From assembly GCF_003725415.1 (NCBI RefSeq), contig NZ_RJQC01000002.1, positions 32,681 to 96,680 of the forward strand: a DNA stretch of 64,000 nt. Reading direction: 5' to 3'. Position 1 is the stretch's first letter. Every line of letters begins with the position of its first letter. The translations under genes were made by a program, and so were the position numbers. The notes beneath the pieces are model-generated. The model worked only from the letters and a program-made list of their open reading frames with translations, was not told the DNA's origin and searched no databases. Shown in pieces: positions 29,081 through 43,903 of the stretch. The DNA comes from Absicoccus porci. GTDB lineage: Bacteria; Bacillota_I; Bacilli_A; Erysipelotrichales; Erysipelotrichaceae.

Positions 29081-29092
29081 GTTCTTATTTTT
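29061..29092. terminator. Terminator between convergent LysR and CM-SK genes
   Basis: AAGAACTC (29067-29074) pairs with GAGTTCTT (29079-29086), with A residues before and T residues after, so it can act both ways. Confidence 0.85.
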
Positions 29093-29897
29093 CTTTTGCT
29101 TCTTTGTCACGATCAAACGCAATTAATTTCGCGATGATTTCATCACAAATCTGATCGGTGCTCTTACCATCGGTCGCAACAACCACATCGGCTACCGCCA
29201 GATATTTATCTTTACGTTGATTCAACAAATCGGAAATAAATTCGACATTCATATGGTTATTTAAAATTGGTCTTTCATCACTATCTTTGACACGTTCCAA
29301 AATGGTTTCTGGTGTGGCAGTCAATAAAACGATACGACCATTCTTCTTCATGTGATCGGCATTATCGGCACGAAGGATGACACCACCACCACAAGAAATG
29401 ATGCCTTGTTTGACTTTTTGTAGTTCAATCAAACAGTTCGATTCCAAATTACGGAAGTAGATTTCACCATATTCATCAAAAATCTCGGAAATCGACATAC
29501 CTTGTTTCTTCACGATCATCTCATCCATTTCGATTCGATGCATTTCCAATTTACGTTCCAATTCGCTTGCGATTGTCGTTTTTCCAGCACCCATGAAACC
29601 AATCAAGAAGACATTATAATCAAATAAAGCCTTGGCTTGAACACGACGAGAATTCTTCATGATATATTTGAAAACATCCAAGATTTCTTCTTCAAATTCA
29701 TTATCTTTTAAATATTCCTCTAAAGCCTTGGTTTGTTTCGCTTCTTGTTCCGGTTGAAGAATCGGAATTCCGGTTGCTTTTTTATACGCAATGATGTCTT
29801 GAATCAATACCATTCGATCCGCTAAGGCATCGATGATACGCATATCGGTATCACCAATCTTCTCACGAATTTCTTCCAATTGTTTTGTATCACTCAT
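29085..29897 (-). CDS. Bifunctional chorismate mutase-shikimate kinase
   Basis: 270 residues. Residues about 1-88 are an AroQ-type chorismate mutase (LEEIREKIGDTDMRIIDALADRM, QDIIAYKK, QPEQEAK). Residues about 92-262 are a shikimate kinase: P-loop GFMGAGKTT, the shikimate-binding Asp-Glu region MDEMI, FRNLESN, SCGGGVI and DERPIL. The two activities are the fifth shikimate-pathway step and the prephenate branch point, not consecutive steps. The gene closes the hydroaromatic-acid island and would draw shikimate into chorismate. It has its own promoter (29963-29940). Confidence 0.92.
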   Translation of the reverse strand: MSDTKQLEEIREKIGDTDMRIIDALADRMVLIQDIIAYKKATGIPILQPEQEAKQTKALEEYLKDNEFEEEILDVFKYIMKNSRRVQAKALFDYNVFLIGFMGAGKTTIASELERKLEMHRIEMDEMIVKKQGMSISEIFDEYGEIYFRNLESNCLIELQKVKQGIISCGGGVILRADNADHMKKNGRIVLLTATPETILERVKDSDERPILNNHMNVEFISDLLNQRKDKYLAVADVVVATDGKSTDQICDEIIAKLIAFDRDKEAKEK

Positions 29898-29975: not shown

Positions 29976-30989
29976 TTAGCGATTGGCCTCTTTCATATAA
30001 GCATGAACTAACGAAGCATCCACTTGTTTTTCAATCGCTACATACACTTTTTCACTTCGCGTATCCATTTCGGCTTGGGTGGCACTATCCAATGTAATAA
30101 TTTGGGTGCCACTATCCTTGATGGTTTGAATACGTGAAGCAATTCGCTTATCCGATTGTTTACGAGCATACTCTTTCGCAATTCGTGCAGCTTGACGAAT
30201 GATCTTTTGTTGGTTCTTTGGCAAAGACTTCATAAATTCACTCGAAACCGTTAAAGAAATCAAATGTGGCAAGTGATTGGTTTCCACTACATAATCTTGT
30301 TGCTCATACAATTTATTCGAAACAATGACTTCATATGGATTTTCTTGGGCATCAATCGTTCCTTGCTGTAAACCAATGTAAACTTCCGAAAAAGTCATTG
30401 GTGTTGGACTGGCTCCTAATTGTTTCCAGAACATCATATGATAGGAATTCTCCATTGTTCGAATCTTTTGTCCTTTAAAATCATCGATGGACGTGATCTT
30501 TTTATTGGTGGACATGACACGGAAGCCTTGATCGGCATATCCTAATAATTCATAACCGCCTTCGTTGTAGACTTTCTGGATTTTTGCCATAAATTCGGAA
30601 TCATCAATAGCTGTTCGTACCAAGTTAATATCATTATAAACACGAGGCATATCAAAGACGGCAATATCTGGCATGAAAGTGACTTGTGGTGCTGTATTTT
30701 GAACCACAAAAGGAATATCTCCATCCTTTTGACTTTCCAATAATTCACGATCCCCACCCAAAACACTATTGGGATACACTTGGATTTTCATCTTACCCTG
30801 ACTCAATCGTGAAACTTCTTGTGCAAACTTTTCTGCATAAATCTGGGTAACGGTATCTTCTGGACTCGATGTTCCCAATGGCCAAGCATATCGTTGTGTA
30901 CCCGTACTGGCTTGGGTACCACAACCAGCTAAGGAAAGCGATAAAATACCGCTTACTACAAGGGCAGTTAATTTTTTTAATCGTTTCAT
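29976..30989 (-). CDS. dctP: TRAP transporter substrate-binding lipoprotein (DctP)
   Basis: 337 residues. A lipoprotein signal with lipobox SLAGC places Cys near residue 23 at the membrane. The TRAP pattern is clear: YPNSVLGGDRELLES, FKGQKIRTMEN with the carboxylate-binding Arg, and GLQQGTIDAQENP. DctP captures a carboxylate outside the cell and hands it to DctQM. The neighbours argue for a hydroaromatic acid such as shikimate or quinate (inference). It ends the dctQ-dctM-dctP operon. Confidence 0.94.
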   Translation of the reverse strand: MKRLKKLTALVVSGILSLSLAGCGTQASTGTQRYAWPLGTSSPEDTVTQIYAEKFAQEVSRLSQGKMKIQVYPNSVLGGDRELLESQKDGDIPFVVQNTAPQVTFMPDIAVFDMPRVYNDINLVRTAIDDSEFMAKIQKVYNEGGYELLGYADQGFRVMSTNKKITSIDDFKGQKIRTMENSYHMMFWKQLGASPTPMTFSEVYIGLQQGTIDAQENPYEVIVSNKLYEQQDYVVETNHLPHLISLTVSSEFMKSLPKNQQKIIRQAARIAKEYARKQSDKRIASRIQTIKDSGTQIITLDSATQAEMDTRSEKVYVAIEKQVDASLVHAYMKEANR

Positions 30990-30995
30990 TCTGTT

Positions 30996-32291
30996 CTACC
31001 CTCCTAATAAACATAAACTGATTTGTGGCACAAATGTAATCAATAATAACGCAATCAAGAAGATACCAATCATTGGCATCGCCTTACGAGCAATATCCAT
31101 GACTGGCACTTCCGTTAGTGAACTAGCTACAAACAAGTTGACGCCAATTGGTGGTGTCACAAAACCGATGGCTAAGTTGACGACCATCATGACACCAAAA
31201 TGAATTGGATTCATACCTACTTGCGTGACAATTGGCACTAGGATTGGTGACAAGATCAAAATCGCTGGAGTTGTATCCATGACCATACCAACCACCAACA
31301 AGAAGGCATTGATCACCAACAATAAAACAACCTTGTTTGTAAAGTGGGATAAGATCCAAGCACTAATGGTTTGTGGCACTTGCATCAATGTCAATACACG
31401 CGAGAATGCCACGGCCGCAGCCAAGATAAATAATATAGGTGCATACGTATGGACTGCTTCCACAAAAATATGCCAAATATCTTTCCACTTCAGTGTTTTA
31501 TAGACAAATAAACTAATGATCAACGCATAGAATACGGAAATAACAGCAGCTTCGGTTGGTGAAGCAATTCCGGAATAAATACATCCCAAAATAATCACCG
31601 GACTCAATAAAGCTAAAAAGCCGTCTTTGAACACTTTCATAAAACCAGCTTCATGCAATTCTTGGACTTTCGTATTGATCTTTTCTTTATCTTCGCCGTG
31701 TCGTTTACAGTAATAAACGCAATATGCCATCAATAAGAACCCAATCAATAAACCAGGCACGATACCGGCAATGAACAAATTACTGACCGATTCCCCACTG
31801 GCCATCGCAAACATGATAAATGGAATGCTTGGTGGAATAATAACACCTAAACCACCAGCTACCGCAACGATCGCAATGGAAAATTTCTTTTCATATCCCA
31901 GTTCCAACAAAAATGGAATGGTCATTGAACCAACGGCTGCCACCGTAGCCGGTGCCGAACCGGAAATGGCCCCATAAAATAAGCAGGTCACTACGACAGC
32001 ACAAGGAATACCAGCTGTTAAATTGCCTAAAAAATACGCAAAAATATCAAATAATTTCTTTGAAATTTGTCCATGTGCCATGATGATACCGGCCAACACA
32101 AACATGGGTACGGCCAATAGTGGAAAGCTATCGATTCCACCCAACATGGAACGAATCACAAAACTACCACTTGCGGTAAAACTTGGATCAAACAAGCCGG
32201 GTAATACTGCAACAATGCCCAATGAAATAGATATCGGTACAGCAATCAATAGACAAATGGCAAAAATTATAAATACGACTCCTACTGACAT
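30996..32291 (-). CDS. dctM: TRAP transporter large permease (DctM)
   Basis: 431 residues with about twelve membrane segments, of the ion-transporter superfamily. Family motifs include GSAPATVAAVGSMTIPFL, GVIIPPSIPFIMFA, SPTEAAVISVFYAL and the late TPPIGVNLFVASS. It forms the ion-coupled channel with DctQ. The stop of dctQ lies next to its start, so the three genes are one operon. Confidence 0.95.
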   Translation of the reverse strand: MSVGVVFIIFAICLLIAVPISISLGIVAVLPGLFDPSFTASGSFVIRSMLGGIDSFPLLAVPMFVLAGIIMAHGQISKKLFDIFAYFLGNLTAGIPCAVVVTCLFYGAISGSAPATVAAVGSMTIPFLLELGYEKKFSIAIVAVAGGLGVIIPPSIPFIMFAMASGESVSNLFIAGIVPGLLIGFLLMAYCVYYCKRHGEDKEKINTKVQELHEAGFMKVFKDGFLALLSPVIILGCIYSGIASPTEAAVISVFYALIISLFVYKTLKWKDIWHIFVEAVHTYAPILFILAAAVAFSRVLTLMQVPQTISAWILSHFTNKVVLLLVINAFLLVVGMVMDTTPAILILSPILVPIVTQVGMNPIHFGVMMVVNLAIGFVTPPIGVNLFVASSLTEVPVMDIARKAMPMIGIFLIALLLITFVPQISLCLLGG

Positions 32292-32292
32292 A

Positions 32293-32841
32293 CTACTTAC
32301 CCTTTTCCTTTACTGTATCGCTAATTTCATCCGCCAATGTTCCTTCTTCTGGAAAATCCACATCCTTCTTCAATACGATTTCCATATTGATGAACCAACG
32401 CTGGATCAAACGAATGCCTGTTAAGATGAAACAAAAGAAAGGTGCTGCTTGGACATAATACATGGGAATGCCGCATGCAGGTGATAACTGACCACTTTCA
32501 ATGGTTGCCACCAAATAACGATAGGCATAGGGAATCAATACCCCAAAGAAGAGAATGGAAATTGTCAAGTTCACAACTTTAAACATAGCCTCTCCACGTT
32601 TTGGAAACATTTTGATAAAGTGATCGATCTTGATCGAAATACACTTTCGCGTACAAAGACTGACACTTAAAAAAGCAGACCAGATAAATAAATACCGGGT
32701 GATTTCTTCTGACCACGACAAAGAAACACCAAGTAAATAACGCGAAATCACTTGCATGCCCATGATCACTGCCATCGCAATCAGAAGGAGCACCATCAGT
32801 ATTTCTTCGAGATTTTCTTCTAAATACTTCAGAACTTTCAT
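32293..32841 (-). CDS. dctQ: TRAP transporter small permease (DctQ)
   Basis: 182 residues with four membrane helices. The DctQ pattern is seen in MQVISRYLLGVSLSWSEEITRYLF, followed by a conserved charged loop and the late IPMYYVQAAPF. It stabilises DctM and contacts DctP. It is the first gene of the TRAP operon and starts a few bases after an AGG-rich site; the aroD terminator lies upstream. Confidence 0.92.
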   Translation of the reverse strand: MKVLKYLEENLEEILMVLLLIAMAVIMGMQVISRYLLGVSLSWSEEITRYLFIWSAFLSVSLCTRKCISIKIDHFIKMFPKRGEAMFKVVNLTISILFFGVLIPYAYRYLVATIESGQLSPACGIPMYYVQAAPFFCFILTGIRLIQRWFINMEIVLKKDVDFPEEGTLADEISDTVKEKGK

Positions 32842-32927: not shown

Positions 32928-33689
32928 TTACAGACTCTTATGAATCAATGTTAAGATCGTATTTAGATCTTCGGCATTCATTTGACCAGGTGCTGATACT
33001 TTGCCAACCGCACCAAAGGTAGCTGCCGAACCAAATACCTCACCACACAAACGTGAAATTAATCCCGTACCTGCCATGGACATGGTGATAATTGGCCGAT
33101 CTGCATAATTTGTTGCCATCTCTTCAGTAGCTGCTAATAATGTCAATACATCCTTTTTATTATTTGGCATTACCGCGATCTTTGGGATATCGGCGCCTTG
33201 TTCCTGCATCTTGCGTAAACGCGAAACAATATCTGCTTGATCTGGTGTCTTATCAAAATCATGATTGGAAGCTACGACTTTTACATTGTTTTGATGAGCA
33301 ACCTCAATGATTTGTGCTACATAGTCATCACCAGTAAAAGCTTCTACATCCACTAAATCAACCAAACCCGTTTTGGCAATGTTTTGATTCAATTCCACAT
33401 AAGCTTCTGGCTCAATGGCTTTTTCGCCACCCTCTTTTGCGGTACGGAAAGTAAACAAGATGGGTGTGTCTTGCAAGACATCACGTAAAGCTTGCGCTAC
33501 ATCCTTGACTTGATCAAAATCAAATACACCTTCAAACCAATCTACTCGCCATTCCACAATGTCTAATTCAACATTCGCAAATGACTTGGCAGCAGCAATA
33601 ATTTCATCTTTTGTTTGGCCAACAATTGGCACGATGATCTTCGGAAGACCTTCGCCAATTGTGACATTTTTTACTTGTACTGTATTCAT
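32928..33689 (-). CDS. aroD: 3-dehydroquinate dehydratase, type I
   Basis: Interconverts 3-dehydroquinate and 3-dehydroshikimate through a Schiff base. 253 residues. The active site is visible: Glu and Arg in VEWRVD, His in ASNHDF, the Schiff-base Lys in PKIAVMP, Arg in GLISRLCGE and Gln in SAPGQM. It starts 4 bases after the MFS gene, in one transcript with a carrier and a YdiB-like dehydrogenase. This setting argues for quinate/shikimate use rather than only for biosynthesis. Confidence 0.95.
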   Translation of the reverse strand: MNTVQVKNVTIGEGLPKIIVPIVGQTKDEIIAAAKSFANVELDIVEWRVDWFEGVFDFDQVKDVAQALRDVLQDTPILFTFRTAKEGGEKAIEPEAYVELNQNIAKTGLVDLVDVEAFTGDDYVAQIIEVAHQNNVKVVASNHDFDKTPDQADIVSRLRKMQEQGADIPKIAVMPNNKKDVLTLLAATEEMATNYADRPIITMSMAGTGLISRLCGEVFGSAATFGAVGKVSAPGQMNAEDLNTILTLIHKSL

Positions 33690-34935: not shown

Positions 34936-35811
34936 TTATTCGTATTTAATTCCTAAGACTTCTTTCATGTGTTCGATTGGCATATCATGACCTGTCCACA
35001 TTTTGAAACCAGCAGCCCCTTGGAACAACATCATGCCAAATCCATTCATTTTCTTGCATCCAACTTCTTCTGCCATTTCCAAGAATCTTGTTTTGGCTGG
35101 CGCATATACTGTATCCGTTACGATCAAATCAGGACGTAGATACGAAGTATCTGGCAACCAAGTTTGTCCTTCCAATGGTTTCATTCCCATACCAGTTGCG
35201 TTTGCCAATAAATAGGAATCGGCAATTTCACGACGCAAAGCTTCTTTATCATCTAAATCAAACAATTGTGCATGACAGTTTGTCTTTTCATTGATTTTCT
35301 TTACTGTTGCTTGAGCATTTTCCCAGAATTTATCATGACGATTAAAGATGGAAATTTCTTTTACACCATCCAATGCTGCTTGGATTTCAATGGCAGTAGC
35401 AGCACCACCAGCACCAGCAATCGTCATTTTCTTACCAATGACATCGATATCATAGTCTTTCAAAGATTCCATATAACCAATTCCATCGGTGATATGTCCA
35501 GTCAATACACCATTATCATTTGTGATCGTATTGACCGCTCCACATAATTCAGCAGCTGGTGATAATTTATCCAAATATTGTCCAACCACGGTTTTGTTTG
35601 GCATGGAAACATTGGAACCAACCATTTTCAATGCACGCAATCCTTTGATGGCATCTTCCAAAGTGCTGTTATCTACTTCGAAAGCCAAATATGCATAATC
35701 AAGTCCTAAATATGCGAATGCTTCATTATGCATTGCAGGTGAACTTGAATGACGAATGGGATAAGCCATTAAACCAATCAATTCTGTGTGTCCTGTTAAT
35801 CTTTCAGTCAT
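34936..35811 (-). CDS. Quinate/shikimate dehydrogenase, YdiB-like (first copy)
   Basis: 291 residues. Substrate-binding HSSSPAMHN, catalytic Lys in VSMPNK and Asp in ITDGIGY are present. The Rossmann loop GAGGAATA is followed by FNRHDKFW, close to the FNRRDEFF stretch of YdiB that accepts NAD as well as NADP and allows quinate. It heads an operon with the MFS carrier and aroD, and a TGTTA-N6-TAACA dyad lies in its leader. It would oxidise quinate or shikimate, or reduce their keto forms. Confidence 0.9.
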   Translation of the reverse strand: MTERLTGHTELIGLMAYPIRHSSSPAMHNEAFAYLGLDYAYLAFEVDNSTLEDAIKGLRALKMVGSNVSMPNKTVVGQYLDKLSPAAELCGAVNTITNDNGVLTGHITDGIGYMESLKDYDIDVIGKKMTIAGAGGAATAIEIQAALDGVKEISIFNRHDKFWENAQATVKKINEKTNCHAQLFDLDDKEALRREIADSYLLANATGMGMKPLEGQTWLPDTSYLRPDLIVTDTVYAPAKTRFLEMAEEVGCKKMNGFGMMLFQGAAGFKMWTGHDMPIEHMKEVLGIKYE

Positions 35812-35834
35812 TTTCTTTCTCCTTTTGTCTCACA

Positions 35835-35850
35835 TGTTAAAAATTTAACA
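35835..35850. promoter_or_regulatory. Dyad TGTTA-N6-TAACA in the aroE-like leader
   Basis: A perfect 16-base palindrome just downstream of the predicted start site (about 35854, minus strand) and 24 bases before the start codon. The same arms and spacing occur at 36943-36958. The position fits repression by roadblock. Confidence 0.65.
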
Positions 35851-35860
35851 ATCCATGGGT

Positions 35861-35959: not shown

Positions 35960-36847
35960 GTGACATTAAATCAAATATTATATTTTCATCGTGCTGCTAC
36001 ATTGGAACACTTCAATTTGGCTGCTGAAAGTCTACATATTTCGGAACCCTCCCTTTCGCGATCCATTTCTTCCTTGGAACAAGAACTAGGAACATCTTTA
36101 TTTGAAAAGAAGGGTCGAAATGTATCATTGACCAAAGCCGGGCGACTTTTTTTAGAGCAAGCCACCATTATCTTGAATGATATCAGTACCGCTCGTATGC
36201 GGATGCATGAATTTACTGAAAGTGGCGGACATGTCGTCATTGCGTATGTAGCACCACTGGCCCATTGGTTTTTACCTTCTTTAGTCAAACATTTCAAACA
36301 ATCGGTGGATAATCGCAATATCCAATTTAATTTTTATGAAGGATATACCGATGCGAACATCAAAGGACTTCGTGAAAAAAAATATGATTTGGTGTTTGGT
36401 TCCAGTAAAGAAGATCAACCCGATGTCACTTTTATTCCAATCTTGAAACAAGAAATGGTTGTTTTATTGCCAAAAGATCATCCCATGGTCAATGAAAAAT
36501 ATCTTGATCATACGATCTTTTCAAAATATCCCGTCTTGTGCTACGATCCCAAAACGGGTTTAGGAAAAACAACCGTGAATTACTTCAAAGAATATAATGT
36601 CCATCCCAATATTACGAGTACCTTTCCAGATGAAGACAGTTTGGCTGCCTTTGTTGCGGATGGTTTTGGCATTGCCTTGGCCAGTGACTCCAAACCCATC
36701 TATCGGGATGATATCGTAATCAAACGATTGATCCCGGAAGAACAATTTATGCATACGATATATATGGCTTATTTAAAGCACGCGGTGCAAATGCCCGCGG
36801 TACGAAAAATGATCGAGTATGTCAAAACAAATGCAGGAGCAATGTGA
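35960..36847 (+). CDS. LysR-family regulator of the hydroaromatic-acid island
   Basis: 295 residues with a GTG start 7 bases after GGAG. The helix-turn-helix is HFNLAAESLHISEPSLSRSI, followed by the ligand-binding domain (about 92-290). It stands between the divergent aroE-like operon and the flavoenzyme gene, which it probably controls. A hydroaromatic acid or its keto form is the likely effector (inference). A terminator overlaps its stop codon. Confidence 0.9.
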   Translation: MTLNQILYFHRAATLEHFNLAAESLHISEPSLSRSISSLEQELGTSLFEKKGRNVSLTKAGRLFLEQATIILNDISTARMRMHEFTESGGHVVIAYVAPLAHWFLPSLVKHFKQSVDNRNIQFNFYEGYTDANIKGLREKKYDLVFGSSKEDQPDVTFIPILKQEMVVLLPKDHPMVNEKYLDHTIFSKYPVLCYDPKTGLGKTTVNYFKEYNVHPNITSTFPDEDSLAAFVADGFGIALASDSKPIYRDDIVIKRLIPEEQFMHTIYMAYLKHAVQMPAVRKMIEYVKTNAGAM

Positions 36848-36920: not shown

Positions 36921-36958
36921 TTTACACTTGTATATGGTTAATTGTTAGTATTTTAACA
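36921..36958 (+). promoter_or_regulatory. Promoter and dyad of the flavoenzyme gene
   Basis: TTTACA (36921-36926) is followed 18-19 bases later by a TTAGTAT -10 region. TGTTA (36943-36947), six bases, TAACA (36954-36958) overlaps that -10 box, so a bound protein would block polymerase. The dyad has the same arms and spacing as 35835-35850. Confidence 0.6.
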
Positions 36959-36974
36959 AGCAAGGAGAGGAAAA

Positions 36975-38975
36975 ATGAAAAGTAAGTATTCACACATTTT
37001 TTCACCATTTACAGTACAACGCATGACAACAAAAAATCGTATTGTCATGACGCCAATGGGTACAAACTTTGGTGAACATAGTGGCGAAATGAGTTTTTTA
37101 CACATTAATTATTATGAACAACGTGCCAAAGGTGGCGTTGGTTTATTAACTGTTGAAAATGCGAGTGTCTATTCCCCTCAAGGATCCAACGGAACGACAC
37201 AATTACGCATCGATCGTGATGAATTTATCCCTCGTTTATTCAATTTATGCGAGCGTGTTCATAAACATGGAGCATGCATTTCCATCCAATTAAATCATGC
37301 CGGTGCCAGTGCTATGTCATCTAGAACGGGAGAACAACCTGTATCTGCTTCTAATATTCCAAGTAAAGAAGGTGGCGAAATTCCTCGTCCATTGGAAAAA
37401 GATGAAATCTATGTGATCGTCAAAAAATATGGAGAAGCCGCAAAGCGTGCACAAATTGCTGGTTTTGATGCCGTAGAGATCCATGCTGGACACTCTTATT
37501 TATTGAGTCAATTCTTAAGTCCATTGACAAACAAGCGTACCGATGAATTTGGTGGTAGTGCGGAAAATCGAGCTCGATTTACACGTTTAGTCATCGATGA
37601 AGTACGTAAACAAGTAGGTCCTTTCTTCCCAATTTTCGTACGTATCAGTGCCGATGAATTCTTAGATGGTGGAAACACATTGGATGATTGTATCGATTAC
37701 TTACAATATTTCGGTGACAATGTCGATGTGTATGATGTATCGGCCGGCTTAAATGGTTCCATTCAATATCAATTGGATGCCAACTATATGCCTGATGGAT
37801 GGCGTTCGTATATGGCACGTCGTGTCAAGGAAGCCTATGGCAAACCAGTTGTAACCGTTGGAAACATCCGTGATCCTCAAGTTGCTGAAGATATCTTAGC
37901 TCGTGGCGATGCCGACTTAATCGGTATGGGACGTGGTTTGATTGCCGATCCGGACTGGGTCAACAAAGTAGAATTTGGTCATGAAGACGATATTCGCAAA
38001 TGTATTTCTTGTAACGTTGGTTGTGCTGGCCATCGTATTGGTTTGAATCAGCCTATTCGTTGTACCGTCAATCCAGCTGTAAACAGTGGTGCCGATTACT
38101 ATAAACACAAAGTCAATAAACCTTGCAACGTAGTTGTTGTCGGTGGTGGAACCGCTGGTTTAGAAGCGGCTTGTACCGCTGCAGAAGTAGGTTGTACAAC
38201 TTTCTTGATTGAAAAGAGCAATCAATTGGGTGGTCTTGCATCAATCATTTCTAACATTCCAGATAAAACGAGAATGAAAGACTTCCCTAAATATTTAATT
38301 CATCGTGCTTCCAAGCTCCATAATTTATTCATTTTTAAGAATACCGAAGCCAATGTAGATTTGGTTAAGAACTTGAATCCAGATATCATTGTTAATGCAA
38401 CCGGTTCAAGCCCAACTTTACCGCCAATTACAGGTCTTCATGATTTAGTAGACAGAGAAGGTACACGTGTTGCGACTGTATTAAAGATGATCGAACGTAT
38501 GGATACCTATCCAGAAGATATGAAAGGTCAGAAAGTCGCTGTTGTTGGTGGCGGTGCCGTTGGTCTAGATGTCATGGAATACTTCACCGAAAAAGGTGCC
38601 GATGTTACCATGATTGAAATGTTACCAATCATTGGTAATGGTTTAGATCCTGTCACAAAATGTGATACACAAACCAAAATGAAGAAATACAACGTGAAAC
38701 AAATGACGAAGACAGCACTTCAAGAAGTACACAATGATAAATTCGTTGTGAAGAATCCAGAAGGCGAAATTGAAGATGTACCATTTGATTATGGCTTCAT
38801 TTGTTTAGGTATGCGTGCAAGCACTCCAGTTTTAAAAGACTTAGAAGAAGCATATGCCGATACCAATGTGGAAGTTTATAATATTGGTGATAGTAAACGT
38901 GCTCGTCGTATCATTGAAGGTACAACCGAAGGACGTAACGTGATCGAAGTATTAAAACGTCACGATTTCATGTAA
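36975..38975 (+). CDS. NADH:flavin oxidoreductase, Old Yellow Enzyme/2,4-dienoyl-CoA reductase type
   Basis: 666 residues in three parts. Residues 1 to about 345 are an FMN barrel (MTPMGTNF, IQLNHAGA, EIHAGHSYLLSQFLSPLTNKR, GMGRGLIADPDW). Next comes a Cys cluster for [4Fe-4S] (CISCNVGC, then Cys in PIRCTVNP). The C-terminal FAD/NAD part has VVVVGGGTAGLEAA and VAVVGGGAVGLDVMEYF. This is the FadH/BaiCD layout, which reduces C=C bonds next to a carbonyl. In this island 3-dehydroshikimate, a conjugated enone, is the tempting substrate (inference). It is a single gene behind AGGAGAGG. Confidence 0.9.
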   Translation: MKSKYSHIFSPFTVQRMTTKNRIVMTPMGTNFGEHSGEMSFLHINYYEQRAKGGVGLLTVENASVYSPQGSNGTTQLRIDRDEFIPRLFNLCERVHKHGACISIQLNHAGASAMSSRTGEQPVSASNIPSKEGGEIPRPLEKDEIYVIVKKYGEAAKRAQIAGFDAVEIHAGHSYLLSQFLSPLTNKRTDEFGGSAENRARFTRLVIDEVRKQVGPFFPIFVRISADEFLDGGNTLDDCIDYLQYFGDNVDVYDVSAGLNGSIQYQLDANYMPDGWRSYMARRVKEAYGKPVVTVGNIRDPQVAEDILARGDADLIGMGRGLIADPDWVNKVEFGHEDDIRKCISCNVGCAGHRIGLNQPIRCTVNPAVNSGADYYKHKVNKPCNVVVVGGGTAGLEAACTAAEVGCTTFLIEKSNQLGGLASIISNIPDKTRMKDFPKYLIHRASKLHNLFIFKNTEANVDLVKNLNPDIIVNATGSSPTLPPITGLHDLVDREGTRVATVLKMIERMDTYPEDMKGQKVAVVGGGAVGLDVMEYFTEKGADVTMIEMLPIIGNGLDPVTKCDTQTKMKKYNVKQMTKTALQEVHNDKFVVKNPEGEIEDVPFDYGFICLGMRASTPVLKDLEEAYADTNVEVYNIGDSKRARRIIEGTTEGRNVIEVLKRHDFM

Positions 38976-38983
38976 AAAAGAAA

Positions 38984-39018
38984 ATGGATCATATCTTAGA
39001 TATGATCCATCTTTTTTT
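38984..39018. terminator. Bidirectional terminator
   Basis: ATGGATCATATC (38984-38995) pairs with GATATGATCCAT (38999-39010); T residues follow and A residues precede. It ends both the flavoenzyme gene and the convergent dehydrogenase gene. Confidence 0.92.
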
Positions 39019-39892
39019 ATTCCGCAAAGAATTTTTCTTTCACTTCTTTTACTGGCATATCCATACCGGTATACAGCTTGAAGGCGGCTACGCCTTGCCA
39101 TAGTAACATGCCCTTACCACCAACGGTTTGACAACCATGAGCTTTGGCATCTTTTAATAATTTGGTTTCCACTGGATTGTATACTGTATCGGCTACAACC
39201 AAGCCTTCATGGAAGACCGACATATCTTCAACAACAGATTTATCATCCATTGGTTTCATACCAACGATCGTGGCATTGACTAAGATATCACTATCTAAGA
39301 TTTCTTTCTTAAATGCTTCTTTATCTGCCAAATCAATCACATTCACTTTACATGCAGGAACGGCATCCATGATTTTTTTCGCCGTTTCTTCAATACGTGG
39401 GAAGAAAGCATCCTTGATATTGAAGATGGAGATTTCACGTGCGCCATCCAAAGCTAACTGGACTTCAATGGCTGTAGCTGCTCCGCCGCCTCCAACAATG
39501 GTAATTTTCTTATCTTTTACTTCGACACCATGATCACGAAGATTATTATTGAAACCTTCCCCATCGGTAATATGGCCAACTAACTTGCCATCTTCATTGA
39601 CAATCGTATTGACCGCGCCAATGATCTTAGCAGCTGGAGAAAGTTCATCGACATTCTGAGCTGCCGCAATTTTGTCAGGCATCGTGACATTACATCCACG
39701 CATGTGGAAGGTCCGCATGGCTTGTAAGGCTTCCGGTACTTTATCTTCTTTGATATCGAAGGCAACATAGACATAATCCAATCCCAATCGTTCAAAACTG
39801 TAATTATACATAGCCGGTGACCCCGAATGGCCAACCGGCGATCCAATTAACGCTAATAATCCTGTTTTTCCTGAAATTCTGTCTGTTGTCAT
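39017..39892 (-). CDS. Quinate/shikimate dehydrogenase, YdiB-like (second copy)
   Basis: 291 residues, a diverged paralogue of 34936-35811. Substrate residues are kept (HSGSPAMYN, VTMPDK, ITDGEGF). The cofactor loop reads GGGGAATA then FNIKDAFF: the Arg that helps hold the NADP phosphate in AroE-type enzymes is replaced by Ile, suggesting NAD preference. Having two such enzymes allows one for quinate/dehydroquinate and one for shikimate/dehydroshikimate. It is a single gene with its own promoter region, convergent with the flavoenzyme gene. Confidence 0.9.
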   Translation of the reverse strand: MTTDRISGKTGLLALIGSPVGHSGSPAMYNYSFERLGLDYVYVAFDIKEDKVPEALQAMRTFHMRGCNVTMPDKIAAAQNVDELSPAAKIIGAVNTIVNEDGKLVGHITDGEGFNNNLRDHGVEVKDKKITIVGGGGAATAIEVQLALDGAREISIFNIKDAFFPRIEETAKKIMDAVPACKVNVIDLADKEAFKKEILDSDILVNATIVGMKPMDDKSVVEDMSVFHEGLVVADTVYNPVETKLLKDAKAHGCQTVGGKGMLLWQGVAAFKLYTGMDMPVKEVKEKFFAE

Positions 39893-40439: not shown

Positions 40440-40463
40440 TAAAAAAACCGCTGATATCAGCAG
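40440..40463 (-). terminator. Terminator after the MetE-like remnant
   Basis: A hairpin around GCTGATATCAGC lies next to a T run on the minus strand (A tract 40441-40446). The stem is short. Confidence 0.5.
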
Positions 40464-41577
40464 TCTTTCCAAACTTCTTCGGCAATTTCTTTGATCAATG
40501 CCAATTTCTTCCATTGATCCTCATCCGTAATCTTATTTCCCTCTTCGGTGGAAGAGAAGCCACATTGTGTTGATAAGCACAATTGATCCAATGGTACATA
40601 TGTTGTTGCTTCTTGGATACGTGCCTTCACTGCTTCCGGATCTTCTAATTCTGGGAATTTGGATGTAATCAATCCCAATACCACTCTTTGATTTTGGATA
40701 AATGATAATGGTCGAAAATCACCGGAACGATCGGAATCGTACTCAAGGAAGAAACCATCGACATGACAGTTTTTAAATAGAATATCCGCAACCGGTTCAT
40801 AACCACCACTTGAGAACCAAGTCGAACGGAAATTACCACGACAAATATGCATTGTAATTGTCATATCAGCTGGCTTTGCATCAATGATCTGATTGATCAT
40901 CTTAACATATTTGCGTCCTACTTCATCCACATTGATTCCTTTTTGGGCATAATTTTTACGCTTGGATGCATCACGAATTCACCCCATGACGTATCATCCA
41001 ATTGTAAGTAACGACAACCTAAATCATAAAATGCATGGACGGCTTTAATGTATGCTTTCGCTATATCATCCAATAATAAATCTTCATTATCTTTATAGCG
41101 TGCAATAGGTTGATATGTATCACTGGAACGAACACACGCAATCAAATGCAACATACTTGGTGAAGGAATGGTTTGTTTCAAATCTACATCTCCCGCAATG
41201 GATTTCAAATACGCAAAGTGGGATAAGAAAGGATGATCTGCAGGAAAATCCACTTTATCCGTAAACGTTAAAGTGGCTCCTTTTGGCTTATCTCCCTTGA
41301 ATTCAACCGACCAATTGGTTTGATCTACATGTTGAACGCCATCTAATTCTTCCAAGAAATCCAAATGCCACATTCTCCGGCGAAATTCGCCATCGGTCAC
41401 CGCTTTTAAACCAACAGCCTTTTCTTTTTCAACCAATTCTTTGATGACCTTATCTTCAACCGCTGTTAATTCATCTTTTGAAATTTCTCCATTCGCAAAT
41501 TGTGCGCGCGCTTCTTTTAAGTAGGCTGGGCGCAAAAAACTACCTACGATATCATAACGATATGGTCTTTGACTCAT
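40457..41577 (-). pseudogene. Cobalamin-independent methionine synthase-like (YxjG/YxjH type), frameshifted
   Basis: Two overlapping frames together cover one protein of about 375 residues. The 5' frame (41577-40918) has the N-terminal part (RYDIVGSFLRP, AVTDGEFRRRMWHLDF, LQLDDTSWGEF). The 3' frame (to 40457) continues with VDEVGRKY, MHICRGNFRS, DGFFLEYD and LSTQCGFSS, including zinc-ligand motifs. Adding one base near 40974-40975 restores the reading through CDASKRKNYAQKG, after the Phe of WGEF. The cause may be real inactivation or a sequencing error. The intact enzyme would make methionine with a methyl-folate donor. Confidence 0.85.
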
Positions 41578-42610: not shown

Positions 42611-43021
42611 TCATTCCTCCATTAGTGATTGGGAGATCATCCAGATTGATTTACTATACGAAGTAATCAATTCATCCATGGTTGGCGATACCAAAACATC
42701 TCCTTCGGCTTGAATGGCTTTGGCCTGGTTGTACAATTCTGTAAAGTCAGCCTTAAGAGCAACCAGTACATCTTTACCAGAAACATAGCCATGTTCTGCT
42801 TCCTGGATCGTTGACAATTCCAGGAATTCCGAAAGTGTGGAAGCCGGTTCTTGTCCAACCATCAACATCGTTTCAGCAACAGTATCGATCTGTTGGGCGA
42901 TCTGGTCATAATACGATTCCAACTGTGTATGTAAAGTGAAGAAATTCAATCCTTTCACATACCAGTGATAGGCTTGCAACTTATGATAAAAAACTTCTAA
43001 ACTACTTAATAATTGATTCAT
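42611..43021 (-). CDS. dps: Dps-family ferritin, copy 1 (distal)
   Basis: 136 residues. Dps cages oxidise Fe2+ with hydrogen peroxide and store it, protecting DNA. The inter-subunit ferroxidase ligands are visible: His in AYHWYVKG, His in TLHTQLE, and Asp/Glu in QQIDTVAE. It is shorter than most Dps (150-170) and lacks a Lys-rich tail, so DNA binding is doubtful. The C-terminal third (GDVLVSPTMDELITSYSKS) differs from the other two copies. It is the third gene in transcription order, directly before ahpC. Confidence 0.93.
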   Translation of the reverse strand: MNQLLSSLEVFYHKLQAYHWYVKGLNFFTLHTQLESYYDQIAQQIDTVAETMLMVGQEPASTLSEFLELSTIQEAEHGYVSGKDVLVALKADFTELYNQAKAIQAEGDVLVSPTMDELITSYSKSIWMISQSLMEE

Positions 43022-43051
43022 ATTTATCTCCTTTCTGGCTTCTTGCCTCTT

Positions 43052-43462
43052 CTATTCTTCTATCAATGCTTGTGAGATCATCCAGACTGCTTTGCTATAG
43101 GATGCAATCAATTCATCCATGACTGGTGATACCGCCACATTTCCTTCGGCTTGAATGGCTTTGGCCTGGTTGTACAATTCTGTAAAGTCAGCCTTAAGAG
43201 CAACCAGTACATCTTTACCAGAAACATAGCCATGTTCTGCTTCCTGGATCGTTGACAATTCCAGGAATTCCGAAAGTGTGGAAGCCGGTTCTTGTCCAAC
43301 CATCAACATCGTTTCAGCAACAGTATCGATCTGTTGGGCGATCTGGTCATAATACGATTCCAACTGTGTATGTAAAGTGAAGAAATTCAATCCTTTCACA
43401 TACCAGTGATAGGCTTGCAACTTATGATAAAAAACTTCTAAACTACTTAATAATTGATTCAT
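43052..43462 (-). CDS. dps: Dps-family ferritin, copy 2 (middle, hybrid)
   Basis: 136 residues with the same ferroxidase ligands as its neighbours. Residues 1 to about 105 equal copy 1 (PASTLSEFLELSTIQEAEH). The tail NVAVSPVMDELIASYSKAVW equals copy 3. The switch lies within the stretch identical in all copies, about 43150-43245. The three proteins can probably co-assemble into mixed 12-mers. Confidence 0.93.
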   Translation of the reverse strand: MNQLLSSLEVFYHKLQAYHWYVKGLNFFTLHTQLESYYDQIAQQIDTVAETMLMVGQEPASTLSEFLELSTIQEAEHGYVSGKDVLVALKADFTELYNQAKAIQAEGNVAVSPVMDELIASYSKAVWMISQALIEE

Positions 43463-43492
43463 ATTTATCTCCTTTCTGGCTTCTTGCCTCTT

Positions 43493-43903
43493 CTATTCTT
43501 CTATCAATGCTTGTGAGATCATCCAGACTGCTTTGCTATAGGATGCAATCAATTCATCCATGACTGGTGATACCGCCACATTTCCTTCGGCTTGAATGGC
43601 TTTGGCCTGGTTGTACAATTCTGTAAAGTCAGCCTTAAGAGCAACCAGTACATCTTTACCAGAAACATAGCCATGTTCTGCTTCTTTGATCGTTGATAAT
43701 TCCAGGAATTCCGAAAGTGTGGAAATCGGTTCTTGTCCAACCATCAACATCGTTTCAGCAACAGTATCGATCTGTTGGGCAATCTGGTCATAATACGATT
43801 CCAACTGTGTATGTAAAGTGAAGAAATTCAATCCTTTCACATACCAGTGATAGGCTTGCAACTTATGATAAAAAACTTCTAAACTACTTAATAATTGATT
43901 CAT
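43493..43903 (-). CDS. dps: Dps-family ferritin, copy 3 (promoter-proximal)
   Basis: 136 residues, first in the operon. It differs from copies 1 and 2 by PISTLSEFLELSTIKEAEH in the middle, and from copy 1 also in the C-terminal third. The ferroxidase His, His, Asp and Glu are kept. GGAG lies 6 bases before the ATG. Its upstream region is shared with the divergent AraC gene and holds a PerR-like sequence. Confidence 0.93.
   Translation of the reverse strand: MNQLLSSLEVFYHKLQAYHWYVKGLNFFTLHTQLESYYDQIAQQIDTVAETMLMVGQEPISTLSEFLELSTIKEAEHGYVSGKDVLVALKADFTELYNQAKAIQAEGNVAVSPVMDELIASYSKAVWMISQALIEE

Follow-up and report, generated by a model that had tools for sequence, protein, structure and literature searches.

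An OYE-type flavoenzyme encoded among quinate and shikimate genes is a candidate dehydroshikimate reductase

The window analysed here, a 64,000-nucleotide stretch of the Absicoccus porci genome, contains an intact plus-strand open reading frame (36,975–38,975) for a 666-amino-acid OYE-type FMN/[4Fe-4S]/FAD reductase, which we propose to be an NADH-dependent 3-dehydroshikimate C=C reductase. Profile searches identified its neighbours. Directly upstream on the same strand lies a gene for a LysR-type regulator (35,960–36,847), divergent from a minus-strand series of genes with short gaps between them: aroE1, for a dehydrogenase that the tree also places as YdiB-like (quinate/shikimate; 34,936–35,811); an MFS transporter with 28% sequence identity to YdiN of E. 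coli (33,694–34,905); aroD, for a type I 3-dehydroquinate dehydratase (32,928–33,689); the TRAP small membrane subunit DctQ (32,293–32,841), large membrane subunit DctM (30,996–32,291) and solute-binding protein DctP (29,976–30,989), the solved relatives of which have carboxylic acids such as sialic acid as ligands; and a chorismate mutase–shikimate kinase fusion (29,085–29,897). After the OYE gene, again on the minus strand, comes aroE2 (39,017–39,892), encoding a second YdiB-like dehydrogenase that falls into a separate clade of the tree and is a candidate for biosynthesis or for a final ketone reduction. The first-pass annotation had stated that genes for making dehydroshikimate flank the flavoenzyme, and the type I AroD, the two AroE-family genes and the kinase fusion bear this out. 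It did not mention the TRAP system (DctPQM), the MFS carrier or the LysR regulator; because these are present, the cluster looks like one for uptake and conversion as well as for biosynthesis. Further along the minus strand, a B12-independent methionine-synthase-like gene is represented by two open reading frames that correspond to its N- and C-terminal parts with the middle missing (40,457–41,577), probably a pseudogene or the result of a deletion, and three tandem, nearly identical genes for 136-amino-acid Dps-like proteins adjoin a peroxiredoxin-like gene (42,611–43,903).

Inspection of the two intergenic regions revealed a palindrome upstream of the OYE gene, TTGTTAGTATTTTAACAA (36,942–36,959), which we propose as a LysR operator, and a matching palindrome, ATGTTAAAAATTTAACAA (35,834–35,851), in the divergent region between aroE1 and the lysR gene. 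Between the end of the first (TTGTTA-N6-TAACAA) and the OYE start lie 15 bp; its near-perfect copy in the aroE1/lysR gap precedes the aroE1-MFS-aroD-TRAP operon. The genome (2.2 Mb) holds the exact motif TTGTTA-N6-TAACA at five distinct sites, and two of these belong to this cluster. This rarity is partly post hoc and has an optimistic chance rate, because it was inspection of these very regions that brought up the motif. Conservation in relatives is better evidence. In three related loci (L006, L020 and L022) the palindrome stands at both positions, as in the window; three more (L012, L018 and L026) have it before the OYE gene, L008, L011 and L019 have degenerate copies, and L007 and L027 yielded none. 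The shared sites suggest that the OYE gene is co-regulated with the genes for quinate/shikimate uptake and conversion.

A search of the genome placed its only AroE genes, its only type I dehydroquinase and its only shikimate kinase inside the cluster and found no type II dehydroquinase. With no other copies in the genome, the aro genes of the cluster also serve biosynthesis, and a purely catabolic set accompanied by separate biosynthetic copies is ruled out. Shikimate salvage without the upper pathway is likewise ruled out by a DAHP synthase and an aroB-aroC-aroA-tyrA operon elsewhere in the genome. That biosynthesis requires the single-locus AroD, AroE and kinase explains part of the neighbourhood without the OYE; it accounts for neither the transporters nor the second AroE nor the OYE itself. 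For a protocatechuate branch, inspection of the two PF01261 proteins of the genome, which read as endonuclease IV and as a sugar epimerase beside an aldolase, disclosed no AsbF/QuiC-like dehydratase.

The three-part FadH/BaiCD layout attributed to the flavoenzyme in the first-pass annotation is present in full. Profile searches delimit an OYE barrel (PF00724, residues 8–338, 269 bits), as in multidomain FadH/TMADH-type enzymes, and an FAD/NAD(H) domain (PF07992, residues 385–623). Between them, directly after the barrel, the alignment places the four cysteines of the [4Fe-4S] motif (C343-x2-C346-x3-C350-x12-C363; codons 38,001–38,063, plus strand), which are kept in at least 95% of the orthologues and paralogues aligned. 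The predicted structure (mean pLDDT of 84, with low confidence at residues 29–31 and 259–267) aligns over its full length with NCR, the 2-naphthoyl-CoA reductase (6qkg), and with FadH, the 2,4-dienoyl-CoA reductase of E. coli (1ps9), at TM-scores of 0.86–0.90; these two are the nearest solved full-length relatives both in fold and in sequence. An acidic residue after the second nucleotide-binding fold marks enzymes of this family that use NADH rather than NADPH; the nearly invariant E548 in the alignment suggests the same cofactor preference here. The best NCBIfam match is to BaiCD (NF041087), full length at 488.8 bits, far under the curated equivalog cut-off of 825 bits, and we rejected membership on that basis; the window also differs from BaiCD clusters in having no bile-acid genes near the OYE gene. 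The same genome encodes four further OYE-family proteins (on C1, C9 and C10), three of which are full-length FadH-type proteins with 30–32% identity to the window enzyme; all four are without aro neighbours within the regions read.

At the end of barrel strand 4, the alignment reveals a His-x2-His-x-Tyr arrangement, HAGHSY (residues 170–175; codons 37,482–37,499, plus strand), in which H170, H173 and Y175 align with His164, His167 and Tyr169 of the ketone/aldehyde ene-reductase YqjM, and G172 and S174 are clade-specific. In YqjM, these counterparts hold the substrate ketone and donate a proton. These residues support an enone-type active site, in line with the first-pass annotation. YqjM and the thermostable OYEs are 39–41% identical to the window barrel, but YqjM is without Fe-S and FAD/NAD domains, and its Cys26 and Lys109 correspond to G29 and S112. 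FadH and NCR, by comparison, share the three-part fold and the Fe-S motif at 25–27% sequence identity, and NCR is without the His/His pair in the alignment; both act on CoA thioesters. Both the His pair and the surrounding aro genes speak against a FadH-like 2,4-dienoyl-CoA reductase function for the window enzyme.

The orthologues of the window OYE form one clade of 38 sequences in the phylogenetic tree (support 100/100) on a long stem. Some eighteen barrel residues never vary within this clade and differ in the aligned paralogues, including T30, N31, N62, R78, N107, S112, R117, S174, S225, E228, Q266, D268 and R299. The signature is nearly unchanged in Listeria, Klebsiella and Paenibacillus, the Klebsiella exceptions being Gln at position 43 and Asp at position 228. 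As positioned by alignment and by the secondary structure of the ligand-free predicted model, its residues lie mostly after the C-terminal ends of the barrel strands, that is, on the catalytic face, and they are strongly polar (T30, N31, N72, T74, R78, N107, S112, R117, S225, E228, Q266, D268 and R299). A hydroxylated cyclic keto acid would fit a pocket that is polar and has a pair of residues for binding a ketone.

The genomic company of the clade is equally distinctive. A scan of genome contigs recovered 22 orthologues with at least 52% identity, and almost every one has AroE, AroD, MFS and TRAP genes as neighbours. With 24 paralogues as the control set, an AroE gene lies within 2.5 kb of the OYE gene for 34 of 40 clade members versus none of the paralogues (Fisher P = 2 × 10−12, a value that ignores shared ancestry); the corresponding counts are 26 of 40 versus 0 of 24 for AroD within 9 kb, and 20 of 40 versus 0 of 24 for a nearby TRAP DctM permease. 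Across 316 genomes of the order, OYE matches are bimodal: 18 stand at 52% identity or more (orthologues, 52–82%), the remainder at 38% or less, and the sole exception in the gap between is one degraded copy. Within the family of the window organism, a YdiB-like AroE is found in 16 of the 17 genomes that have the OYE versus 5 of about 256 that do not (P = 1 × 10−20, again ignoring shared ancestry). The recurrence of the linkage in the distant lineages Listeria and Klebsiella is free of that limitation. The gene is both co-inherited and clustered with enzymes that make dehydroshikimate, as the proposed 3-dehydroshikimate C=C reductase would be.

Variation among the loci is informative about the core of the module. 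Listeria has OYE-AroE-AroD with a LysR gene, and in Klebsiella a LysR gene follows OYE-AroE-MFS-AroD. In two genomes, the operon is reduced to MFS-OYE-AroE-MFS-LysR, without AroD, which indicates that OYE and AroE are the core. Six of the 40 orthologues have no nearby AroE; they comprise two on Paenibacillus plasmids, one in another member of the Bacilli, one in Cellulosilyticum and two on contigs that end close by. The two Paenibacillus copies (L114 and L115) retain the complete pocket signature and sit beside a phosphotransferase-family gene, with no aro genes near. In Faecalibacillus intestinalis (L025, 8,998–11,567), stops or frameshifts interrupt the OYE orthologue as well as the AroE1 next to it, which suggests joint loss. 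The window OYE shares 87–88% identity with Lachnospiraceae copies versus at most 82% with copies from its own family, and these values suggest that the cluster was transferred between gut Firmicutes. The Listeria monocytogenes (L110, 2.9 Mb) and Klebsiella pneumoniae (L112, 5.4 Mb) records used here are listed as plasmids and are evidently chromosomes.

The associated dehydrogenase has a phylogeny of its own. A single AroE1 clade, placed next to E. coli YdiB (branch support 84/86), unites the OYE-associated proteins of Erysipelotrichaceae, Lachnospiraceae, Halanaerobium, Listeria and Klebsiella; E. coli AroE falls outside on a long branch, so that AroE1 is of the YdiB type. It is 50% identical to YdiB, which is a quinate/shikimate dehydrogenase, and its best solved match is 3tnl, the Listeria enzyme. 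AroE2-type copies form separate clades, many of them beside the kinase fusion. Holdemanella and Faecalicoccus relatives possess, besides AroE1, a more divergent AroE that branches further out in the tree. AroE-like proteins of about 430 amino acids with extra sequence were seen at three other loci (L014, 4,410–5,732; L024, 6,554–7,816; L028, 5,368–6,651), with a DAHP synthase near those in L014 and L024; these are likely to be biosynthetic AroE fusions in Erysipelotrichaceae.

Taking together the architecture, clade, conserved pocket, neighbourhood, co-occurrence and common operator-like palindrome, all obtained directly here, we infer the substrate, product, direction, cofactor and division of the AroE steps from chemistry and context. 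We think it probable that the OYE serves specifically to reduce dehydroshikimate, as part of a module for quinate/shikimate reduction. Quinate and/or shikimate would enter through the TRAP and MFS carriers; AroE1, being of the YdiB type, would oxidize quinate to 3-dehydroquinate or shikimate to 3-dehydroshikimate, yielding NADH; and AroD would dehydrate dehydroquinate to dehydroshikimate. Electrons from NADH would then pass through FAD and the [4Fe-4S] cluster to FMN, and the OYE would reduce the C1=C2 bond, conjugated to the C3 ketone, by adding a hydride to C1 and a proton to C2. The predicted ketone product, 3,4-dihydroxy-5-oxocyclohexane-1-carboxylate, is a described compound (PMC9171043), and an AroE may convert it to dihydroshikimate. 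The net consumption of one NADH per quinate or shikimate would make the module a fermentative electron sink. What the first-pass annotation observed is confirmed. Its interpretation is partly supported and considerably strengthened: the functional tie to dehydroshikimate chemistry, which it had proposed from context, is upheld by the conserved neighbourhood, the co-occurrence, the shared palindrome and the recurrence in Listeria and Klebsiella.

The same genes could also work with a different division of labour, in which the OYE reduces shikimate, a cyclic 2-enoate, directly to dihydroshikimate while AroE and AroD act in parallel. Enoate reductases have the same OYE/Fe-S/FAD architecture, those of clostridia reducing acyclic enoates, and operons that hold OYE and AroE without AroD would suit imported shikimate as the substrate. 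However, the AroE that adjoins the OYE at 34 of the 40 loci is most simply explained if it makes the OYE substrate, the His170/His173/Tyr175 triad is of the ketone/aldehyde ene-reductase type represented by YqjM, and dehydroshikimate is the more activated alkene; we consider direct reduction of shikimate unlikely. If anything less likely is a reductase for general enone detoxification or redox balance that has no particular link to shikimate and would owe its neighbourhood to the transfer of a biosynthetic aro cluster. The association with AroE is absent from the 24 paralogues and recurs in Listeria and Klebsiella, and the pocket signature hardly varies within the clade, unlike that of a detoxification enzyme. 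Such a role would accord with the promiscuity of the OYE superfamily, with AroD, AroE and shikimate kinase having no other copy in the genome, and with the Paenibacillus orthologues that lack aro genes nearby; against it, AroE1 is an extra copy in the Holdemanella and Faecalicoccus relatives, and in Faecalibacillus the degraded OYE lies beside a degraded AroE1.

Dietary chemistry suggests another substrate. Plant quinate occurs largely as caffeoyl esters and related flavoenzymes reduce cinnamates, so that the OYE might act on hydroxycinnamates such as caffeate released together with quinate from chlorogenic acid. This we hold to be very improbable: no esterase gene recurs among the neighbours in the 23 relatives compared, the two reduced operons retain only AroE and MFS carriers, and the single GDSL hydrolase downstream in Listeria innocua lies at a position that a LysR gene occupies in L. 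monocytogenes.

A related gene arrangement is known from E. coli, in which the ydiM-ydiN-ydiB-aroD stretch, like the window, sets MFS transporters, a YdiB dehydrogenase and a type I AroD side by side but, unlike the window, is without an OYE. A search of 5,426 E. coli genomes with the Klebsiella OYE-AroE-MFS-AroD segment gave no close match. In Listeria, lmo0489-lmo0490-lmo0491 (OYE-AroE-AroD) includes a direct orthologue, which has 57% identity and the same pocket signature and shares an operon with AroE and AroD; no TRAP system lies alongside. The lmo0489 product was described in 2023 as an OYE homologue with a substrate yet to be elucidated (PMC10269891), and the title of a 2020 paper cited in PMC9324987 has Listeria making protocatechuate from dehydroshikimate with QuiC2.

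The first-pass annotation knew of no described pathway of this form. As a statement about genes this holds, since our literature search, with Whiting and Coggins 1974 and the Listeria QuiR/QuiC2 papers outside its reach, found no gene assigned to quinate/shikimate reduction in lactobacilli. As a statement about chemistry it does not: according to a statement in PMC13204703, lactobacilli convert quinic acid through shikimic to dihydroshikimic acid as a hydrogen acceptor, and PMC8149962 cites Whiting and Coggins 1971 for quinate/shikimate reduction by these bacteria. The net chemistry reported by Whiting and Coggins in the 1960s–70s, known as physiology and enzyme activity, is the same as that proposed here. 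Among the genomes identified by name, none with an orthologue was a lactobacillus. The pathway is new only in part: novelty appears to lie in the assignment of a gene, its spread across taxa and the signature that sets the clade apart.

We see an even prospect that the clade represents the missing gene of the reductive quinate/shikimate pathway, an NADH-dependent dehydroshikimate reductase that, with a YdiB-type dehydrogenase, makes up a portable electron-sink module in gut Lachnospiraceae and Erysipelotrichaceae, Listeria and Klebsiella, and that could take the first step from dietary quinate and shikimate to saturated cyclohexane carboxylates, which the host aromatizes to benzoate and hippurate. 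If so, a gene would be available for a fermentative reaction known since the 1960s–70s, and lmo0489 of Listeria and its Klebsiella counterpart would gain a substrate. The shikimate pathway would have a reductive exit at dehydroshikimate, beside the known dehydration to protocatechuate. Presence of the clade would also mark those gut bacteria for which quinate and shikimate from the diet serve as hydrogen acceptors, and it would become testable which microbes begin the quinate-to-hippurate route of people and animals.
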